Shown here one piece after another: positions 47,420 to 56,935 of a DNA stretch of 64,000 bases; the first letter of the stretch is position 1, and each line of letters starts with the position of its first letter. Under the pieces are notes generated by a model. It saw nothing but the letters and a program-made list of their open reading frames with translations, ran no database searches and was not told where the DNA came from. A program made the translations under genes and the position numbers. The stretch is from Aurantiochytrium sp. KH105 (taxonomy: Eukaryota; Sar; Bigyra; Thraustochytrida; Thraustochytriidae), in contig BGKB01000030.1 of the NCBI GenBank assembly GCA_003116975.1, positions 127,399 to 191,398 of the forward strand, given 5' to 3'.

Positions 47420-49303
47420 CTACTGCGCGTCACTCGTGGGCATCCAGGATGGTGGAAGCTCCTCAGGCAAGGGCTCGTCCTTGAGAGCAAAAATCTCAAT
47501 GAGATGTCTGGCAATGGCAAACTCCTCGAGCGTGAGAGACCCATCTTGATCAAGGTCGCTCAGGTTCCAGATTTGCCGGAGCTTGGACTTGGCGACCCCT
47601 GTGGCCACGAGAAGATCACGCACCTCGTTTCCATGAATCTTCCGCTTCCCATCGACATCACGCACAGGACCAAGGGCATCAAACTCGCCGCTGTAAAGCG
47701 CAAGTGACTCGGGATCGACAGCCCAATCCTTGTTTGTGACGCTCAACGGAGGCGTGGCACCATCTTTTGCGCCAAAAGGATTCTCATCGCCGGCTGATCG
47801 CTTCGCCTCCGCGGCTCGCTTTCGACCGGCTTCTGCCGTATGCTGCGCATGTAGTCGAGGAAGATGAGAAGAGAGTATATCGTTGAGCTCAACGATCATG
47901 CGCTGATTAAGCGGAGGGAACTTGGAGAGATCGTTGTCAGTGTGCGTCTTGAGGGCGCGACGAAAGGTTTCGGGCCGCGGAAAATCGCCGAGGGGCACGC
48001 CGTGCTTGCGGTGAATTTCCTGGTACTCGTTCTCCAACGAGTCGAGCATCTTTTGCAGCGCTTTCTCCTTGAACATAAGAGGGAGTTTGTTACGCAAATG
48101 GTCAACGATGAGTGCGTGCGTCTTGGCAGCACGTGCGCGCTTGACAACTTCATTGACCTTGCGCGTGATGGCCGATCCGGGTAGGGAGCGAAGGTCATCG
48201 ATGAGATCAGTGCTCTCCTTACGAAAGAGCTCCTCAAAGATGCGGTTTTGCAAGGGGTTATCCCAAAAGCTGCCCACGTAGACGCGCACCACCTCTGGAG
48301 TTCGAATGATCTTACCAAGGGACCACATGAGGGCGCCATGCACGCGCATGAGCTGCTGCGCATCGACGGCATCTGCCTTGTTGAGCACGACGCGAATTTT
48401 TTCGTCGTGGCCGCGCAGCGCGGCAATCGCTGTCTGGAACTCGTCACTAATGTCCAGCTTATGAGCATCAAAAAGCAAGAGGATGCGGTCGCAGCGGCCC
48501 GCAAACCATTCCACCACACCTGTGTAATCGTACGAGCGGCCGATTCGCTGCTTCTCTCCAGCGAGGACGCCCGGGGTGTCGACAAAGGTAATGTGCTTCA
48601 AGATGCTCGCTTTGTTGCCCTCCGCCGTCGTGCTCGTTTGGGCGCACTCTAATTTGTCAAGAAAGGCGGCGCCAAAGCGCTGCAGCGAGCGAAACGGACG
48701 ATCCGACTGCACGGCGAGAGCGTTGCCAGGGATCACTGTGTCAGTGCTGCTGGGGTCGTCGCTACCTGCAACAATGGTGAAGCGGTCGGTTGTGGGCTCC
48801 GGGCCGATGCGCTGGCCTGGGAAGTCGCGTCCCACGAGATACCGGATAAATGACGTCTTGCCCACGGAGTACTGGCCGATGAGGAGTACCATGGGCTTGG
48901 CGTCAAAGTCAGCATCGGTCATGACGGGCGAATAGAATTCGCCAAACTTGAATTGGACCTCTAGCGGCTTGATGCCTGCGCGGTAGAGCCGCTTCAAACC
49001 TTCGACGGTGGCGTCGTTATGGGTCGCGTTGGTGCTGCCTGCGCCAGAGTCGCTGCTGGTGATGCTTGTGTAGCAGCTTTCGCATACGCGTTGCGGCGAG
49101 TTCTTGCTAAAGCCGAGCTCAGGGAGCGCCACGTACCGGGCTGCGCACCGTGCGCAAAACACGGATCCGCACTTGCGGCAGTGGTGCTTGCGGACCGACA
49201 TGGAGAACTTGGTGTCGCACGCCTCGCAGTTCAGGACAAACTCATCCTTCACCCAGTGCGACACGTCCGGGCCCGTTGCCGTCGCGCTGCTGCTCGACGA
49301 CAT
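47420..49303 (-). CDS. FYVE-EHD fusion: FYVE zinc finger, EHD ATPase and C-terminal EH domain
   Basis: 627 residues, intronless, ATG at 49301-49303. Residues about 16-82 are a FYVE finger: WVKDEF, eight Cys in CEAC/CRKCG/CARC/CESC spacing, the PI3P-binding RKHHCRKCG, and RVCESC. From residue about 105 comes the dynamin-like EHD module: YRAGIKPLEVQFKFGEFYSP, the P-loop GQYSVGKTSF, PTTDRFT (switch I), FVDTPGVLAG and LNKADAV, then the helical segment. The last 100 residues are an EH domain with an EF-hand loop (SDLDQDGSLTLEEF) and the NPF-pocket Trp (QIWNLSD). Family role: EHDs oligomerise on endosomal membranes and drive tubulation/scission. Animal EHDs lack FYVE, so PI3P binding in cis is the oddity. 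Confidence 0.93.
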   Translation of the reverse strand: MSSSSSATATGPDVSHWVKDEFVLNCEACDTKFSMSVRKHHCRKCGSVFCARCAARYVALPELGFSKNSPQRVCESCYTSITSSDSGAGSTNATHNDATVEGLKRLYRAGIKPLEVQFKFGEFYSPVMTDADFDAKPMVLLIGQYSVGKTSFIRYLVGRDFPGQRIGPEPTTDRFTIVAGSDDPSSTDTVIPGNALAVQSDRPFRSLQRFGAAFLDKLECAQTSTTAEGNKASILKHITFVDTPGVLAGEKQRIGRSYDYTGVVEWFAGRCDRILLLFDAHKLDISDEFQTAIAALRGHDEKIRVVLNKADAVDAQQLMRVHGALMWSLGKIIRTPEVVRVYVGSFWDNPLQNRIFEELFRKESTDLIDDLRSLPGSAITRKVNEVVKRARAAKTHALIVDHLRNKLPLMFKEKALQKMLDSLENEYQEIHRKHGVPLGDFPRPETFRRALKTHTDNDLSKFPPLNQRMIVELNDILSSHLPRLHAQHTAEAGRKRAAEAKRSAGDENPFGAKDGATPPLSVTNKDWAVDPESLALYSGEFDALGPVRDVDGKRKIHGNEVRDLLVATGVAKSKLRQIWNLSDLDQDGSLTLEEFAIARHLIEIFALKDEPLPEELPPSWMPTSDAQ

Positions 49304-50354
49304 CTTGTCTCCGCCTCACTTGCCCGAATGAATGCGACGAGGAAGAGAGACTCGAACCGTCTGCCCTCGCGACGAGCTCGCCGCGAGGCTCGCGTGTCAC
49401 AAGGGGCACAAGACGCGCTTCGCTCGGGCCCCGTCAGCTGAGATGGCCTACGCGCCCGTTTGCTCGCTGTCTATCGCTTGGCTTTTGCTTGCTTGCTTGG
49501 CTTCGAAAGATTCTGGATCCATTCGATTCATTCAAGGTGTTTGCCCCTAGCTATTGCGGTAGCTGCAGCAGCTGCTGCTGCTCAATATGACGCTCATGGC
49601 GAGGGACGAGATGGAGTTGTTCATGAATGAGACGCGGAGGAGGAGAAAAAGTATACAAGAACAACGAGAAGAACATCAGGCTGGAGATGCCATGCATGAT
49701 GATGTCGTGGTTAGATGACGCTGGTTGCCACGAGCAAACCAACCCACTCGATTCTCACACCAACCAACCAAGACGCTCACTTATCTCCGACCAAATCGAT
49801 GCTCATAACGTCAACGATGATGGGGACTCGTGACCGCCAGTCAGCCTCATCACGGGCCTCGCAGGCCTCGCAGACATTGCAGCGTTAGCCCACCCCCCTT
49901 GGCAGCGCACCGTCTCCACCGGAGCCGGCCGGCCTCCACTGGCACCCTCGTCGCCATCCAGGCCTCGCCAATCTTCTGAGGCTCGGCAGCGAGCTAGCCA
50001 GCGACAGCGACAACGACCCGCGTGCCGCTGCCGCTGGAAGAGTCCTCGTTTGCACGGACCGTGGGTGCTCACAACTCGTGCGCATGTCAATTGTAAAAAA
50101 AAAAATTCAGGCCGCCCAAAATTGCCGCAAGGAGGGAGCTCTCTCTTCCGCTTCCAGCTCAGCCGTCGGTGGGAGCGACGCCGCGCAAGAGAGCAGAACC
50201 CAAACATATGTCTCGCCGTGGACGTTTCCTTCGTACCGCGAGAGGCCAGAAAGACCCCCTCCGCGACGGGGCGACGCCTCCTCGCGCGTCTGGCTCGAGG
50301 CAGGCGGCCGCGGTGATCATCTGACCCTCCAGGGTGGACGGAGACTCTGGCCGA
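49304..50354. promoter_or_regulatory. Divergent region between FYVE-EHD and the first GT8 gene
   Basis: 1.05 kb. The last 150-180 bp (about 50180-50354) are homologous to the region upstream of the second GT8 gene (about 52815-53050), sharing GGCGACGCCTCCTCGCGCGT, so the promoter was duplicated with the gene. No separate gene is supported. Confidence 0.6.
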
Positions 50355-52109
50355 ATGGACGGAGCCGCAAAGGGTGCGAGGGGCCTCACGAGCTCGTCTC
50401 TCGCGAGGGAAATGTCGCTCTCCCCGTTCAGACGAGGGTGCCTCTTGGCCTTCTCGCTCATGGCGCTCACCTACGCGTGTTTTATGGTGCTCGAAAGGAC
50501 GTACATGTTCGATGACTCTCGCGTCTTCGCGGAACGTGAAAGCGAGTATGCACACGAAAATAACACCACGTCCTCTCCTTGGATGTTGAATCCGCCCTCG
50601 CTGAGCGAACTGAGCCACCAGGCTAGCATCGGGACCCGCTGGGTGACCTTGCTCGACGGCTCCGTGTCCCCGCGTGCCTTTAAGCGCCACATGTTCACAA
50701 AGCATCAGAATGGAAACATTGCATGGCTTGAGATGAGCGTCCTGGCGACTCCGGGCGCCCCGGAAGAGCTCTTGACATGGGCCAAGGACCTGGGCGTGAT
50801 GATTCACCCAGTACCGTCTCTTACATGCAAGAACACGACAGCACCAGCGTCGCAGAGACACCACATGGCCAGAGTCTACGCGTGGTGCTTGACCGGCGGG
50901 CCCATTGTGTTTACACGGGCTCACACGCTCATCCTGCGTGACCTGCGTCAATTTGAATCGCGATGTAGAAGCGATCTCGCCTATTGCGGTCCAGGGGCAT
51001 TCGAGAATCTCCCAGAGTTTGAAATTGATTCGGGAATCTTCATGGCTCGACCCCACGAAGCACATTGCCAGGCGCTTCGCTCGATGGCCGAAAATAGCAC
51101 CCAGCATCCCAAAGATTGCGAAAAGGGTATTCTCAACTCGTACTTTGACCCTGTCAACCGGACTGTGCTTGATTTCCGGTACAACGCGGCACTAGGAGGG
51201 AAGAAGAATGGCGTGCAGTCGTTCGCAAATGCCATCATCGCCCAGTACGAGCCCTCACAAGAAGCTCGCTTGAAGCGTGGGGAAGGAGTGCGCGACGTTA
51301 TAGACTCGATCGATCGAGCGTTCGATCGCTTTGAGGCTGTTCGCGCGGGGCGTATCCCAAGGCGGGTCATTTATGCGACGATTTTGACGCCAGCGCCAAA
51401 GGGTTTCACGCATTCGACCACTCCCGAGGCCTTCAAGGCCCATCATGTTAGCAAATTTGTCAATGGCAAGATTCCTTGGGAGAATCAAGCGATCATCTAC
51501 ACAGAGAACGCTTTCCCGGAATACAGGGCGTGGCTCAAAGCTCGCGGGGGGCATATTATAGAAGTGCCGCCGTTGTTTTGTGAGAATGGCCGTGACAAGC
51601 GCTACAAGTACCAGTTCACCAAGCTCCAGATGTGGAATCTCACAGAGTGGGATACCATTGTGTACACAGATCTCGACACGCTCGTGACGGGCGATATCTC
51701 ACAGCTATGGCAATCGTGTCCGGATGGTGTCAATCTCTGTGGCGCGGCTGAGAGCTTTCGTTTACCGGATGCGCAATACATCAATGGGGGTCTTATGCTT
51801 GCGCGGCCGAACAAGGAGTTCTATCAAGATCTGATTGAGGGTCGTGAAACATACAAAAACTCGACGTATCTCTGCGAGCAAGATTATCTCAACTTCTTTC
51901 TTACAGAGCAACGAATCGGTATTGTCGATCCGAAGTACAATATCATGAGCTTTGATAAGGCGCGCACAATCCCCTATGAAGACGCAAGGCTTATCCACTC
52001 CAAAAAGGAGCATGAGAAAATACTGCAGTTTGCAGTCACGAAAGAAGATCGTAGCTTCATCGACAGAGAGCGCAAGAGGATTGCGCGGCTCGTGTCAGAC
52101 TTTGATTGA
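50355..52109 (+). CDS. Double-domain GT8-like glycosyltransferase, tandem copy 1 (type II membrane protein)
   Basis: 584 residues from ATG 50355; an in-frame ATG at 50412 (MSLSPFRRGC) aligns with one in copy 2 and is also possible. A signal anchor (RGCLLAFSLMALTYACFMVL) follows basic residues, then a short stem and two GT8-like halves. The C-terminal half has YTDLDTLVTGDISQLW, with the metal-binding DxD, and YINGGLMLARPNKEFYQDL. The N-terminal half aligns with it, but DxD has become RxH (FTRAHTLILRDLRQF), with FEIDSGIFMARPHEAHCQAL as the counterpart, so it is probably non-catalytic. Several N-glycosylation sequons (NTT, NST, NRT, NLT) fit a Golgi lumenal enzyme. Sugar donor and acceptor are unknown; GT8 includes glycogenin and plant glucuronyltransferases. 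Confidence 0.88.
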   Translation: MDGAAKGARGLTSSSLAREMSLSPFRRGCLLAFSLMALTYACFMVLERTYMFDDSRVFAERESEYAHENNTTSSPWMLNPPSLSELSHQASIGTRWVTLLDGSVSPRAFKRHMFTKHQNGNIAWLEMSVLATPGAPEELLTWAKDLGVMIHPVPSLTCKNTTAPASQRHHMARVYAWCLTGGPIVFTRAHTLILRDLRQFESRCRSDLAYCGPGAFENLPEFEIDSGIFMARPHEAHCQALRSMAENSTQHPKDCEKGILNSYFDPVNRTVLDFRYNAALGGKKNGVQSFANAIIAQYEPSQEARLKRGEGVRDVIDSIDRAFDRFEAVRAGRIPRRVIYATILTPAPKGFTHSTTPEAFKAHHVSKFVNGKIPWENQAIIYTENAFPEYRAWLKARGGHIIEVPPLFCENGRDKRYKYQFTKLQMWNLTEWDTIVYTDLDTLVTGDISQLWQSCPDGVNLCGAAESFRLPDAQYINGGLMLARPNKEFYQDLIEGRETYKNSTYLCEQDYLNFFLTEQRIGIVDPKYNIMSFDKARTIPYEDARLIHSKKEHEKILQFAVTKEDRSFIDRERKRIARLVSDFD

Positions 52110-53052
52110 TTGATGGGCTGCAAGTGAAATGAGTCGCTCAAAGTCAGTAAGGTCATGCAATCGCGATCTAGCTGCAGGTTCTTTAATCCTTCGCTCTGTC
52201 CGTTCATTTGACGATTACACGGACGGCTATTGTGTGCAAGCGATCTTGTAAGCCAAAATGAAAGGTGTTTAGGTTAAATTAGGCTCCAAGAAAAAAGTCA
52301 AGAACACCTAGATTAATATGTCCTGCCTGCTCTTCCCTTGATCGCTGACTTGTGAGAGATCTTCGAAAAGCTTTGCTTTGGTCAAAAACATCTGAACAAG
52401 CGTTTTACGTCGAATTTTCAATCTAATTTTTTCCCGATAAATTCAGGTGGTAGACAATCATTCCGTCAGTTCGAAACCGACCCGAGTCATTTCTTTGAGA
52501 CAGTGAAAAACTTTTGTAAGCGCTGCATTCAATTTCAAATTTGGAAAAGAAAAATCAATTGCACATTTATGGCCTCTCATTTACCACAAGCGCACCCAAA
52601 CAAACCTTCGCTATACCTATCTGCCACAGCTACAATCTCTCGGCATCTTTTGGATGATCAGACTGCCAACTAATCCACAATCGCATCACAACGCGTATCA
52701 GCTTGCGCGCAAAGTTTCTGTGGCTATTCACAGTCAAGTAGGACGCAGCACGAGCTATCCGTTATTGAGGGAGATGCCCGGGCCTGGTTCGAACGAAGGC
52801 GTAAAGTATTTTTTTGAAGAGAGCAAACCGCAGAAAATCGCAAAGAAGTCTCGTCGCGAGGCTTTTCTTCGTGCCGAGCGAGGCCAGCCAGACCACCACC
52901 AGCCCCCGCTCTGGGGACAAAGGCGACGCCTCCTCGCGCGTCTGTCTCGCTGCCGGCAGCGGGGCGCAGGGAGGCGCGGCGGCGACCTTCTCTAGCGGCA
53001 CGGAGACGACTCTTGAGGGGTAGACTAAAACCCATAGGGCTCGAGGGGCCTC
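52110..53052. promoter_or_regulatory. Spacer between tandem GT8 genes
   Basis: 943 bp. The first part is the 3' flank of copy 1 and has similarity to the 3' flank of copy 2 (CGCTCTGTC...CATTTGACGATT in both). The middle (about 52200-52700) is AT-rich and unique, and the last 230 bp resemble the copy 1 promoter. No gene is seen. Confidence 0.6.
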
Positions 53053-54861
53053 ATGAGCCCGAGCCTCGCTCGCGAGTGGCCGTGCGTGAGAGAAATGTCG
53101 GTCTTCCCGTTAAGACGAGGGTGCCTTCTCACCTCCTTGCTCATGGTGCTCGCCTACGCGGGCTTCATGTCGCTCGAAACGGCCTACATGATTCATGACT
53201 TCCACGTTCTTGCAGTCATCGAAAGCGAGTACGCCTACGAAGATATCACGACGCCTTCTCCTGATGACGTCCACACCTTTGCGGAACGTGGAAGCGAGTA
53301 TGCTCACGAAAACAACACCACGTCCTCTCCTTGGTCGTCGATTACCCCCTCGCAGAGCGAAGTGAACCACCAGGCTAGCATCGGGACCCGCTGGGTGACC
53401 TTGCTCGACGGCTCTGTGTCCCCGCGTGCCTTTAAGCGCCACATGTTCACAAAGCATCAGAATGGAAACATTGCATGGCTCGAGATGAGCGTCCTGGCGA
53501 CTCCGGGCGCCCCGGAAGAGCTCTTGACATGGGCCAAGGACCTGGGCGTGATGGTTCACCCAGTACCGTCTCTTACATGCAAGAACACGACAGCACCAGC
53601 GTCGCAGAGACACCACATGGCCAGAGTCTACGCGTGGTGCTTGACCGGCGGGCCCATTGTGTTTACACGGGCTCACACGCTCATCCTGCGTGACCTGCGT
53701 CAATTTGAATCTCAATGTGGAAGCGATGCTGCCTATTGCGGGCCAGTGGCATTCAGGAATCTCCCAAAGTTTGAGATTGATTCGGGAATCTTCATGGCTC
53801 GGCCCCATGAAGCACATTGCCAGGCGCTTCGCTCGATGGCCGAAAATAGCACCCAGCATCCCAAAGATTGCGAAAAGGGTATTCTCGACTCTTACTTTGT
53901 CACTGTCAACCGGACTGTGCTTGATTCCCGGTACAACGCGGTGCTACGAATGAAGAAGTATAGCGTGCAGTCGTTCGCAAATGCCATCGTTGCTCAGTAC
54001 GAGCCCTCACAAGAAGCTCGCTTGAAGCGTGAGGAGGGAGTTCGCGACGTTATAGACTCGATCGATCGAGCGTTCGATCGCTTTGAGGCTGTTCGCGCGG
54101 GGCGTATCCCAAAGCGGGTCATTTATGCGACGATTTTAACGCCAGCGCCAAAGGGTTTCACGCATTCGACCACTCCCGAGGCCTTCAAGGCCCATCATGT
54201 TAGCAAATTTGTCAATGGCAAAATACCTTGGGATAACCATGCGATCATCTACACAGAGAACGCTTTCCCGGAATACAGGGCGTGGGTGAAAGCTCGCGGA
54301 GGGCATATTATAGAAGTGCCGCCGTTGTTTTGTGAGAATGGCCGCGACAAGCGCTACAAGTACCAGTTCACCAAGCTCCAGATGTGGAATCTCACAGAGT
54401 GGGATACTATTGTGTACACAGATCTCGACACGCTCGTGACGGGCGATATCTCGCAGCTATGGCGATCGTGTCCGGATGGTGTCAATCTCTGTGGCGCGGC
54501 GGAGAGCCATCGTTTTCCTCGTAGACAATACATCAATGGGGGTCTTATACTTGCGCGACCGAACAAGGAGTTCTATCAAGATCTGATTGAGGGTCGTGAA
54601 ACGTACGAGGGATCGATGGTCATGTGCGAGCAGCATTACCTCAACTACTTTCTTACAGAGCAACGAATCGGTATTGTCGACCCGAAGTACAATATCATGA
54701 GCTTTGATAAGGCGCGCACAATCCCCTATGAAGACGCAAGGCTTATCCACTCCAAAAAAGAACATGAGGAAGGACTTAAATTTGCAGTCACGGAAGAAGA
54801 TCGTAGCTTCATCGACAGAGAGCGCAAGAGGATTGCGCGGCTCGTGTCAGACTTTGATTGA
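53053..54861 (+). CDS. Double-domain GT8-like glycosyltransferase, tandem copy 2 (type II membrane protein)
   Basis: 602 residues from ATG 53053; an alternative ATG at 53095 matches copy 1. Same plan as copy 1: anchor RGCLLTSLLMVLAYAGFMSL, stem, degenerate N-terminal GT8 half (FTRAHTLILRDLRQF in place of DxD) and intact C-terminal half (YTDLDTLVTGDISQLW, YINGGLILARPNKEFYQDL). The stem is longer than in copy 1 because a short segment is duplicated (ESEYAYEDITTPSPDDV and then GSEYAHENNTTSSPW). Most of the catalytic region is near-identical to copy 1. Differences cluster at the start, in the part after the first half (VTVNRTVLDSRYNAVLRMKK) and near the donor-site loop (SHRFPRRQ for SFRLPDAQ; GSMVMCEQHYLNYF for NSTYLCEQDYLNFF), so substrate preference could differ (inference). 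Confidence 0.88.
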   Translation: MSPSLAREWPCVREMSVFPLRRGCLLTSLLMVLAYAGFMSLETAYMIHDFHVLAVIESEYAYEDITTPSPDDVHTFAERGSEYAHENNTTSSPWSSITPSQSEVNHQASIGTRWVTLLDGSVSPRAFKRHMFTKHQNGNIAWLEMSVLATPGAPEELLTWAKDLGVMVHPVPSLTCKNTTAPASQRHHMARVYAWCLTGGPIVFTRAHTLILRDLRQFESQCGSDAAYCGPVAFRNLPKFEIDSGIFMARPHEAHCQALRSMAENSTQHPKDCEKGILDSYFVTVNRTVLDSRYNAVLRMKKYSVQSFANAIVAQYEPSQEARLKREEGVRDVIDSIDRAFDRFEAVRAGRIPKRVIYATILTPAPKGFTHSTTPEAFKAHHVSKFVNGKIPWDNHAIIYTENAFPEYRAWVKARGGHIIEVPPLFCENGRDKRYKYQFTKLQMWNLTEWDTIVYTDLDTLVTGDISQLWRSCPDGVNLCGAAESHRFPRRQYINGGLILARPNKEFYQDLIEGRETYEGSMVMCEQHYLNYFLTEQRIGIVDPKYNIMSFDKARTIPYEDARLIHSKKEHEEGLKFAVTEEDRSFIDRERKRIARLVSDFD

Positions 54862-55108: not shown

Positions 55109-56935
55109 CTACTTATCTTGCTGAGGAAAGTAGTACATGGGAAGCTCGGCTCGCTCACCAAAGAGCGCACTTGCCTCGTTAACATTTGTAATGGAACGCA
55201 AAAGTATTGAGCGGATTCCATCAAAGACTTTGGCTGTATATGTGAAGTTCCACACGCCAGCAAGCTCGCCATGGGCCGCCAGTGGGGCCTCAAGCGCTTC
55301 CTTGTAGAGGACCGGGTCTGCGTCCAGTCTTTTGATTCGATCGATGCAGGGGGCGAAATGAGACGATAGACGCTCTTGCAAATCGGAGTCAAAGCTGGCT
55401 TGGCATGTCGATGAATGGCTGTCGGGGCACATGGCTTTGAAGGCTTTGTTTAAAGCTTTGTCGGACACCATATCGCTGGGGATGTCACAGTGAACATAGG
55501 CTGCGGGATTCAGTACTTGATTGAGAGAGAACTTGTCAGGCCCAAAATAAATGGGAATAGAATGAGCCAAATACGCGTCAACGATCTTCTCGCTAATGTA
55601 GCCATCGCACGGCCCGTTCTCAAACACGATTGCGAATTTGTGCTCCGAATGTACCGCGTTTGCCGAGGCGCGTTGAAAGTAGTCTTTCAGAGCGAGACGT
55701 TCTGCATTGGGAACTCCCAAGCGCTCCACAGCATCTCCTCTTGGACAGTGGCCGAGCGAAGATACAGGGCGCGCCTTGGCCGCCAACTCGAACGCAAAAG
55801 CAGTACGAATGGCAGTTGTATGTCTGTACTGGTGGCAGTTCGATTGCAAAAAGGAAGCGAAATACCGTTTGTGCCTCAAGACAGTGTTGATGTCAAAGAG
55901 ACCGCGCCGAAAGACAACTTCCTCGACGCCAGTGCCATCAGGGATGCAACATCCGTGGCGCTTTTGGTAGTCGGCGAGAGGTTCCGAAGGAGAGATAGGG
56001 CCAAGGCGTCTGCCGATTGACACAAGCCCAAATGGAGCGTAGACCGCGATAGAACTGAAGGGAAGCATTTCTCTCTTTGTTTCCAGTTGGATCTCGACAC
56101 CTTCGACGAATTGGAGCCACGGCTCAAAGCACAAGCGAATATTCACTGGGCCCACACGAGCCTTTGTGACGGGGTCGCCAACGTACTTTACATTGCGCGG
56201 CAAGGAAACCATACGAGCCTCAGAGGTCCACAAGGACGATTCGTTCATCTCAAATGTGTGGTGAAGCAACGTCGCGTTGCGCAGACGCTTGATTGTTTCC
56301 ACAACGCTTGTTTGACCGAACCAACACAATCTAAAATCCGCGTCGAGGCCCAGCATGAGCCACAGCTCTTCGTCGGTAAAGCTTTTTGATCTATACTTTT
56401 GGGCAATATACTTCTCCTCGGGTGCCACTGCAATGACTCGCACGCTCTCGTAGAGGCGTGTCATCCCCTTAGCAAGCTCAAATGTATACCATCGCACCTC
56501 CGTGTTTGAATAATCAATACGAAAGCTGTTCTCGTTGGTACAGTAGGCCAGCGTAACCTGCGATCCCTTGGGTCCAAAGCCTGGGAGTACGGCCATCTTT
56601 CTTCCGGGCACGGTGCCATCATCCACTTCATTCGGAAATCCTGGCAAACCCGCGGACCAAGAAGAGGCTGAAGCGCGCTCTGTGTATTCGTTGGTGCCAA
56701 GACGGGGCGAATTTGACTCTCTAACGAAGGCATCTCCAGACACAGCAGCAAAGACATCTTCGTATTTTCCTGTGGAAAAAAAAATGCTCGTCGCCATGCT
56801 GCCCATCGTGAAGGCTAGAGCTGCGGCAAGGGCAATTCGCAGCACGCCTGCTCGGTTGCCGCCGGTCCCGCTAACGCTGACGCTGTTGGTGCCACCTTGC
56901 CGCCCGCGGGCGTGGTCCAGCCGTTGCTGCGCCAT
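55109..56935 (-). CDS. GT10 alpha-1,3-fucosyltransferase-like protein (type II membrane)
   Basis: 608 residues, ATG at 56933-56935. A cytosolic basic N terminus is followed by a signal anchor (RAGVLRIALAAALAFTMGSM), then a long stem/N-terminal domain. The GT10 signature lies near residue 450: KFAIVFENGPCDGYISEKIV followed by DAYLAHSIPIYFGPDKF. It corresponds to the family pattern FEN-x4-Y-x-(S/T)EK...P(V/I)-x-x-G that binds GDP-fucose. The downstream CDIPSDMVS and ACPD/ATCQ-like Cys-rich tail also suit the fold. At 608 residues it is longer than animal FUTs (about 350-400), the extra length being N-terminal. Predicted role: a Golgi fucosyltransferase acting on glycans; the acceptor is unknown. 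It converges with the second GT8 gene (247 bp between stops). Confidence 0.87.
   Translation of the reverse strand: MAQQRLDHARGRQGGTNSVSVSGTGGNRAGVLRIALAAALAFTMGSMATSIFFSTGKYEDVFAAVSGDAFVRESNSPRLGTNEYTERASASSWSAGLPGFPNEVDDGTVPGRKMAVLPGFGPKGSQVTLAYCTNENSFRIDYSNTEVRWYTFELAKGMTRLYESVRVIAVAPEEKYIAQKYRSKSFTDEELWLMLGLDADFRLCWFGQTSVVETIKRLRNATLLHHTFEMNESSLWTSEARMVSLPRNVKYVGDPVTKARVGPVNIRLCFEPWLQFVEGVEIQLETKREMLPFSSIAVYAPFGLVSIGRRLGPISPSEPLADYQKRHGCCIPDGTGVEEVVFRRGLFDINTVLRHKRYFASFLQSNCHQYRHTTAIRTAFAFELAAKARPVSSLGHCPRGDAVERLGVPNAERLALKDYFQRASANAVHSEHKFAIVFENGPCDGYISEKIVDAYLAHSIPIYFGPDKFSLNQVLNPAAYVHCDIPSDMVSDKALNKAFKAMCPDSHSSTCQASFDSDLQERLSSHFAPCIDRIKRLDADPVLYKEALEAPLAAHGELAGVWNFTYTAKVFDGIRSILLRSITNVNEASALFGERAELPMYYFPQQDK

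Follow-up and report, generated by a model that had tools for sequence, protein, structure and literature searches.

The stretch of DNA analysed here (hereafter the window) comprises 64,000 nucleotides of the thraustochytrid Aurantiochytrium sp. KH105 and corresponds to C30:127399-191398 in a genome of 76.0 Mb and 367 contigs. Its forward strand carries, in an open frame at 50412..52109, a gene designated A1 that encodes a tandem GT8-type protein, in which two GT8-type halves are preceded by a leader with a single hydrophobic segment. The neighbours of A1 include genes for an EHD/FYVE GTPase, a GT10-type protein and a GNAT/bromodomain protein. Parts of the omega-3 PfaA synthase model also match the genome, each match staying under the cut-off of that family; with the long open frames, this might fit a labyrinthulomycete. 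The reading frame is uninterrupted from 50334 to 52109. The start codon given in the preliminary description, the ATG at 50355, is missing from the partner copy of A1 on contig C87, whereas an ATG that directly precedes the hydrophobic segment, at 50412 in A1, is common to A1, A1b and A2, and for these reasons the A1 protein is probably 565 amino acids long. In A2b the codon at that position specifies Leu, and its ATG sits further upstream. The hydrophobic segment GCLLAFSLMALTYACFMVL (50436..50492, forward strand) has 19 residues with a Kyte-Doolittle mean of 2.09, and no second segment above 1.6 on this scale was found in A1. It is probably a signal anchor, and the topology predicted from it is that of a type II membrane protein.

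The N-terminal half of A1, with a donor site that appears degenerate, lies at 50625..51335 on the forward strand, as supported by hhalign comparison of the N- and C-terminal halves, a profile match to glycogenin and the table of site residues described below. The C-terminal half, with its donor site apparently intact, follows at 51342..52106 on the same strand, as supported by PF01501, the family profile and the site table. Comparison of the two halves bears out the earlier observation that the protein aligns with itself, with the motifs in the same order and at the same spacing. BLASTP of one half against the other gave 81.6 bits with E = 5e-23, the identity being 30% over 206 columns, while 239 of 500 shuffled C-halves gave any hit, the best of these reaching 30.8 bits. 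Family profiles of the two halves were aligned by hhalign with E = 4.8e-41 over 231 columns, and the first DxD position lies 37 residues ahead of the NGG/DSG position in the N-half and 38 ahead of it in the C-half. A chance origin of the similarity of the N-half is rejected on the basis of the BLASTP comparison, the profile alignment and the 500 shuffles.

Searches against solved structures place both halves near the known GT8 enzymes. The nearest solved relative of the N-half, by its profile alone, is glycogenin (E = 7e-8), with its DxD column falling on the DAD of glycogenin; the nearest relatives of the C-half by family profile are Pythium Gat1, a UDP-galactose:glucoside-Skp1 alpha-D-galactosyltransferase (7.9e-9), and glycogenin (2.7e-6). 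The C-half of A1 matches PF01501 with E 1e-7 and 32.2 bits (cut-off 24.3), and, with a limit of E = 1, the Pfam GT8 model matches all 11 C-halves scanned, the best at 2.2e-8, and none of the 11 N-halves scanned. In the genome-wide Pfam GT8 search 14 of the 17 intact genes of the family described below pass the cut-off; A2 and both copies of locus F are not among them, the whole A2 protein scoring 23.8 against 24.3. Nucleotid_trans (PF03407) also matches 9 of the 11 C-halves, remaining below its cut-off in A1 and A2. Thus, the claim of two GT8-type halves is supported by the half-against-half comparison, the profiles and the glycogenin match. Judged by its motifs, the C-half is a divergent GT8 that keeps DxD, NGG, (D/E)QD and the C-terminal His and is without the KPW lysine; the N-half is, by its profile relationships, a GT8 by descent that does not show the features expected of a functional GT8 site.

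A complete second copy, A2, which is absent from the preliminary description, begins 1 kb downstream of A1 at 53095..54861 (forward strand; a further in-frame ATG is present at 53053) and has the same architecture, with 85% identity to A1 over 591 columns. Its degenerate N-half (53377..54087, forward strand) is 92% identical to that of A1 and carries the same Arg-Ala-His replacement, and its C-half occupies 54094..54858 on the forward strand according to the site table. The (D/E)QD motif of the A2 C-half reads EQH, and that of its partner copy on C87 reads EQD. Over part of the N-half, A1 and A2 on C30 show fewer differences from each other than are found between the copies on the paired contigs, and A1b and A2b are likewise closer over part of the C-half. 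Such patches are what local gene conversion between tandem copies would leave, as far as the few informative sites indicate.

Searches of the genome with three divergent members of the family gave the same set for all three queries, comprising at least 17 intact tandem-GT8 genes and one broken copy. The intact genes, all with open frames and all carrying both halves, fall into nine loci, of which A1, A2, B1, B2, D1, E1, F1 and G1 are present on two contigs each and C1 on one. The broken copy (L021, G000:C239:62393-63845) is of E type, is split into several frames and stands outside the count of 17. No stand-alone half was found among the scored matches of the three queries in the genome search, the remaining matches being pieces of the A2 leader and weak matches to a conventional GT8 on C30 and C87. 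B1, B2 and C1 are clustered within 7 kb of contig C8 and A1 and A2 within 5 kb of C30, an arrangement which suggests that the family grew by local duplication. A single hydrophobic segment above 1.6 is present in 15 of the 17 frames and absent from the two E frames. In eight of the nine loci the N-half contains counterparts of all four cysteines that are conserved in the C-half, together with two further ones of its own, D1 being without two of them. Since a closely similar copy on a second contig exists for eight of the nine loci, the assembly is read, from identity, as containing two haplotypes. The synonymous divergence between paired contigs (C30/C87, C8/C132 etc.) ranges from about 0.05 to 0.29 in both halves across the eight pairs; this seems high for alleles, and a hybrid or a very diverse diploid is possible. 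Relatives were also looked for in viral, phage, bacterial and archaeal collections, none of them eukaryotic, and none was confirmed in viral contigs (scans with C-half and N-half), in bacterial and archaeal genome contigs (C-half scan) or in phage records (protein search).

The residues of the donor and metal site were compared in an alignment of all 34 halves (17 N and 17 C). The identities of the columns were taken from the alignment of the N-half profile with glycogenin, from the LgtC site residues Asp103, Asn153, Asp188 and Gln189 given in PMC7826918, and from the account of the C-terminal His and the KPW lysine of GT8 in PMC7185993. Counted from the ATG at 50412, the site residues of A1 are R169, H171, D206, K238 and Q278 in the N-half and D420, D422, N458, E489, Q490 and H529 in the C-half. 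The C-half retains the DxD as Asp-Leu-Asp (51669..51677, forward strand, within the motif YTDLDT at 51663-51680), and in the N-half the facing codons, as read from the sequence and the alignments, specify Arg-Ala-His (50916..50924, forward strand, within FTRAHT at 50910-50927). The alignments thereby agree with the preliminary description, in which the DxD of the first half had been replaced by Arg and His, and its further claim that the metal site of this half is lost is supported at the level of the sequence. The Arg-Ala-His is probably not a sequencing slip, because all four copies of the subfamily (A1, A2 and their partners on C87) carry it.

The losses in the N-half of A1 go beyond the Asp pair and include the donor-site Asn, Gln and C-terminal His, and a comparable pattern runs through the family. 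The first Asp of the DxD is Asp in all 17 C-halves; in the N-halves it is Arg in the four A copies, Ala in the two B1 copies, Glu in one G1 copy and Asp in the other ten. The second is Asp in 16 of the 17 C-halves (one locus F copy reads DPG) and Asn, His or Arg in every N-half. The Asn of NGG is invariant in the C-halves and is replaced by Asp in 17/17 N-halves. The Gln of the (D/E)QD motif, a motif termed invariant in GT8 and crucial in LgtC (PMC7826918), is kept in 15 of the 17 C-halves, where the motif reads EQD in 14/17, EQH in A2 and EVD and ETD at locus F; the N-halves have Lys in 13, Arg in two and Val in two, the last being both E copies. The C-terminal His is present in 15 C-halves, with Arg in both locus F copies, and is replaced in the N-halves by Gln (15) or Val (2). 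This column is the least secure of the set, since the profile and family alignments give Gln and the four-row alignments shift it; the G1 N-half is also hard to align. Taken together, the second Asp, Asn, Gln and C-terminal His are all replaced in 17/17 N-halves and all kept in 15/17 C-halves. The KPW that follows the His was found in none of eight C-half tails (one per subfamily) and is present in L024 and L045, two of the other GT8s that this genome encodes. As the C-half lacks this lysine of the GT8 clade, its own activity is putative.

The preliminary description had named an acidic pair elsewhere in the N-half as a feature that might restore metal binding. Of the 11 N-halves listed, 10 contain triplets of the form D/E-x-D/E, the positions of which vary, so that family-wide no such pair is conserved; within the subfamily of the window, EID (at the NGG position) and DCE are common to all four N-halves. 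A rebuilt metal site in this subfamily nevertheless appears unlikely from the alignments.

Locus F (L017 and L018; G000:C25 about 424400-425930 and C163 about 50700-52220) presents a separate case, as both halves look inactive by their residues. In its C-half the His is replaced by Arg and the Gln by Val or Thr, and one copy has DPG for the DxD. This locus, and the missing KPW lysine of the C-half, would fit a protein that is non-catalytic as a whole and serves other transferases as a scaffold or chaperone, in the manner of COSMC with T-synthase. We regard this as very unlikely, as 15 of the 17 C-halves keep DxD, NGG, EQ and His, which would hardly be expected without catalysis.

The selective constraint on the halves was examined from the differences between the paired contigs, pooled over eight pairs, C1 being outside the sums as it has no partner contig. 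The N-halves show 91.5 non-synonymous and 148.5 synonymous differences and the C-halves 96 and 155, giving Nd/Sd of 0.62 for each (p = 1.0). The leader shows 117.2 and 66.8 (Nd/Sd 1.75; N-half against leader p = 3e-7) and is a lenient control, because it was taken from the upstream stop codon and part of it is possibly untranslated. The N-half is under constraint equal to that on the C-half and is kept by natural selection. Among individual loci, dN/dS between contigs is higher in the C-half at F (0.48 against 0.16 in the N-half) and at E (0.44 against 0.29), the C-half site of locus E being intact despite this. Locus F runs against the general trend of the family, with a C-half that is losing site residues as well as showing the higher dN/dS. 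Among the subfamilies, A1/A2 aside, identity is 26-58% for the N-halves and 38-75% for the C-halves, the N-halves diverging faster.

Conservation by column was assessed with one representative for each of eight subfamilies and a threshold of 7/8. The two halves share 19 columns conserved alike and 10 that are conserved but different, with 21 conserved in the N-half only and 54 in the C-half only. The new states conserved in the N-half include Asp for Asn (8/8 subfamilies) and Gln for His (7/8); since both are among the ten conserved-but-different columns, these positions are replaced rather than drifting. An N-half that is a functionless relic in the course of being lost would agree with its faster divergence among paralogues, and is held to be highly improbable in view of an Nd/Sd that equals that of the C-half and is far under that of the leader, the 17 open frames out of 17 and the 50 N-half columns that are conserved in at least seven of the eight subfamilies.

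A tree was inferred from nine halves of each type, N and C, with two further GT8s of the genome, and rooted at the midpoint, the G1 N-half and both outgroups forming long branches. It separates the N-halves from the C-halves with support 99/98 and, against the two outgroup GT8s, recovers the N group with 97/93 and the C group with 99/98; the N- and C-halves group together, apart from the other GT8s of the genome. This split indicates that a single internal duplication most likely predates the radiation of the family. The simplest placement of the four shared site losses (second Asp, Asn, Gln and C-terminal His) is on the N branch, which would put them after the duplication and before the radiation. 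The first Asp appears to have been lost later and more than once, separately in the subfamily of the window (to Arg) and in B1 (to Ala).

An N-half that has lost its site residues and is yet kept by selection is probably a built-in helper of the C-half. The reading that we consider likely is, therefore, that of a duplicated GT8 in which a putatively active C-half is joined to a conserved, non-catalytic N-half as its partner. The protein would reside in the secretory pathway as a type II membrane protein, with a lumenal part that arose from one GT8-type GT-A domain by internal duplication. The C-half would be a retaining transferase dependent on Mn2+, with a nucleotide sugar as donor; activity, metal and sugar are all predicted. 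The N-half, deprived of the metal-donor residues, would be unable to bind the donor, and may stand in for the second subunit of a GT8 dimer, holding or positioning the acceptor or stabilising the active half. The preliminary description, made without sight of the family-wide change and the constraint, had likewise read the first half as a putative pseudoenzyme, with acceptor binding, regulation or dimerisation as its possible roles. Several observations speak against this reading of a partner joined to an active C-half. The Pfam GT8 model misses 11/11 N-halves scanned, the N-halves diverge faster among paralogues, and the His column depends on the alignment. EID and DCE are shared within the subfamily of the window, the KPW lysine is missing from the C-half, locus F has lost C-half site residues, and C-half dN/dS is higher at E and F. 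Besides, DxD loss alone is no proof of inactivity, given GT14 and GT6 (PMC7185993).

This last point leads to readings in which the N-half is itself functional as a binding or catalytic site. GT14 and some GT6 enzymes are active without a DxD, and DxH replaces DxD in GT27 (PMC7185993); DVH is present in the N-half of one member of the present family. If basic residues (in the copies of the window, Arg and His at the DxD and Lys at the Gln) took the place of the cation as in GT14, both halves could be active, the N-half independently of metal, and the protein would be bifunctional. The constraint on the N-half by Nd/Sd, the Lys or Arg at the Gln position in 15/17 N-halves (the two E copies excepted), the Asp at the NGG position in 17/17 and the persistence of activity after DxD loss in GT14 and some GT6 (PMC7185993) are compatible with this. 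The reading is unlikely, as four donor-site residues were lost together, among them the Gln of the D/EQD motif described as invariant in GT8 (PMC7826918), and the letters at the two Asp positions of the DxD differ by locus (RH, AN, DN, DH, DR and EN in the N-halves), unlike what one rebuilt site would be expected to show. Alternatively, the changes of the acidic ligands to Arg, His or Asn, of Gln to Lys, of His to Gln and of Asn to an invariant Asp might mark a rebuilt site that binds a nucleotide sugar metal-free or an anionic acceptor glycan, so that the protein would be a one-chain processive or two-step glycan synthase; this we regard as rather unlikely.

Glycogenin is a homodimer of one GT8 domain, and in both glycogenin and Gat1 each chain carries a single GT8 domain that is active. 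In the tandem family, by contrast, each chain has two GT8 domains, of which one is degenerate, together with a hydrophobic anchor, and the KPW lysine is missing. LARGE combines domains of two different families, both of which are catalytic. LARGE1 and LARGE2 (GT8 + GT49) resemble the present proteins in their tandem GT-A domains, the first of which is in GT8 (PMC7185993). In contrast to LARGE, the two halves here are products of a single internal duplication, and one of them is degenerate. A LARGE-type architecture is rejected, since there is no GT49 match (a Pfam search of the full A1 protein at E up to 1 gave only Glyco_transf_8 and, weakly, Nucleotid_trans) and the halves group with each other in the tree.

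The closest known system in working principle, by analogy, is EXTL3 (GT47 + GT64), in which, according to the account in PMC9178029, the GT64 domain binds UDP and no UDP was seen in the GT47 domain of the same chain. The domains of EXTL3 are unrelated (GT-B and GT-A), whereas those of the tandem family are two copies of one GT-A type domain. Among the plant GT8 pectin synthases, GAUT1 is described with GAUT5/6/7, GT8 homologues that tether the active GT8 in the Golgi (PMC7533613); these partners are separate chains, unlike the tandem GT8. Their role as anchors does not stem from loss of the DxD, because DxD and HxxGxxKPW are stated to be conserved amongst the GAUT1 family (PMC7533613). COSMC (C1GALT1C1, GT31) is a glycosyltransferase homologue without DxD that acts on an active paralogue (PMC7185993), and it differs from the tandem GT8 in being a separate chaperone of another GT family. 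COSMC and the GAUT anchors, as presented in PMC7185993 and PMC7533613, indicate that glycosyltransferase homologues can serve as partners.

Known glycosyltransferase partners that are non-catalytic are thus either chains of their own, as with COSMC, or domains from a different family, as in EXTL3. The present genes hold two copies of a single domain, of which one was apparently disarmed before the radiation, and the pair has been kept in at least nine loci of one genome. None of the open-licence papers listed in literature searches proved to concern a GT8-GT8 protein with a disabled half, which is weak evidence of novelty, nor was a paper on a thraustochytrid GT8 found among them. The family provides a natural series for testing the role of a disarmed partner, in which the first Asp is kept, changed to Ala or changed to Arg, with one locus where the second half is decaying.

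Two other protein-coding regions of the window were noted; nothing in the window matched Rfam at gathering scores. A divergent GT10-type protein is encoded at 55109-56935 on the reverse strand; in a protein search of the genome its only matches were the protein itself and a copy on C87 with 95% identity. GT10 is not a general companion of the family, as only the C30/C87 pair among 8 GT10 matches shares a contig with a member; the six others, read as three pairs, are on other contigs. At 47420-49303, also on the reverse strand, lies a gene for an EHD-type protein of the dynamin family with an N-terminal FYVE zinc finger, a seemingly unusual combination.
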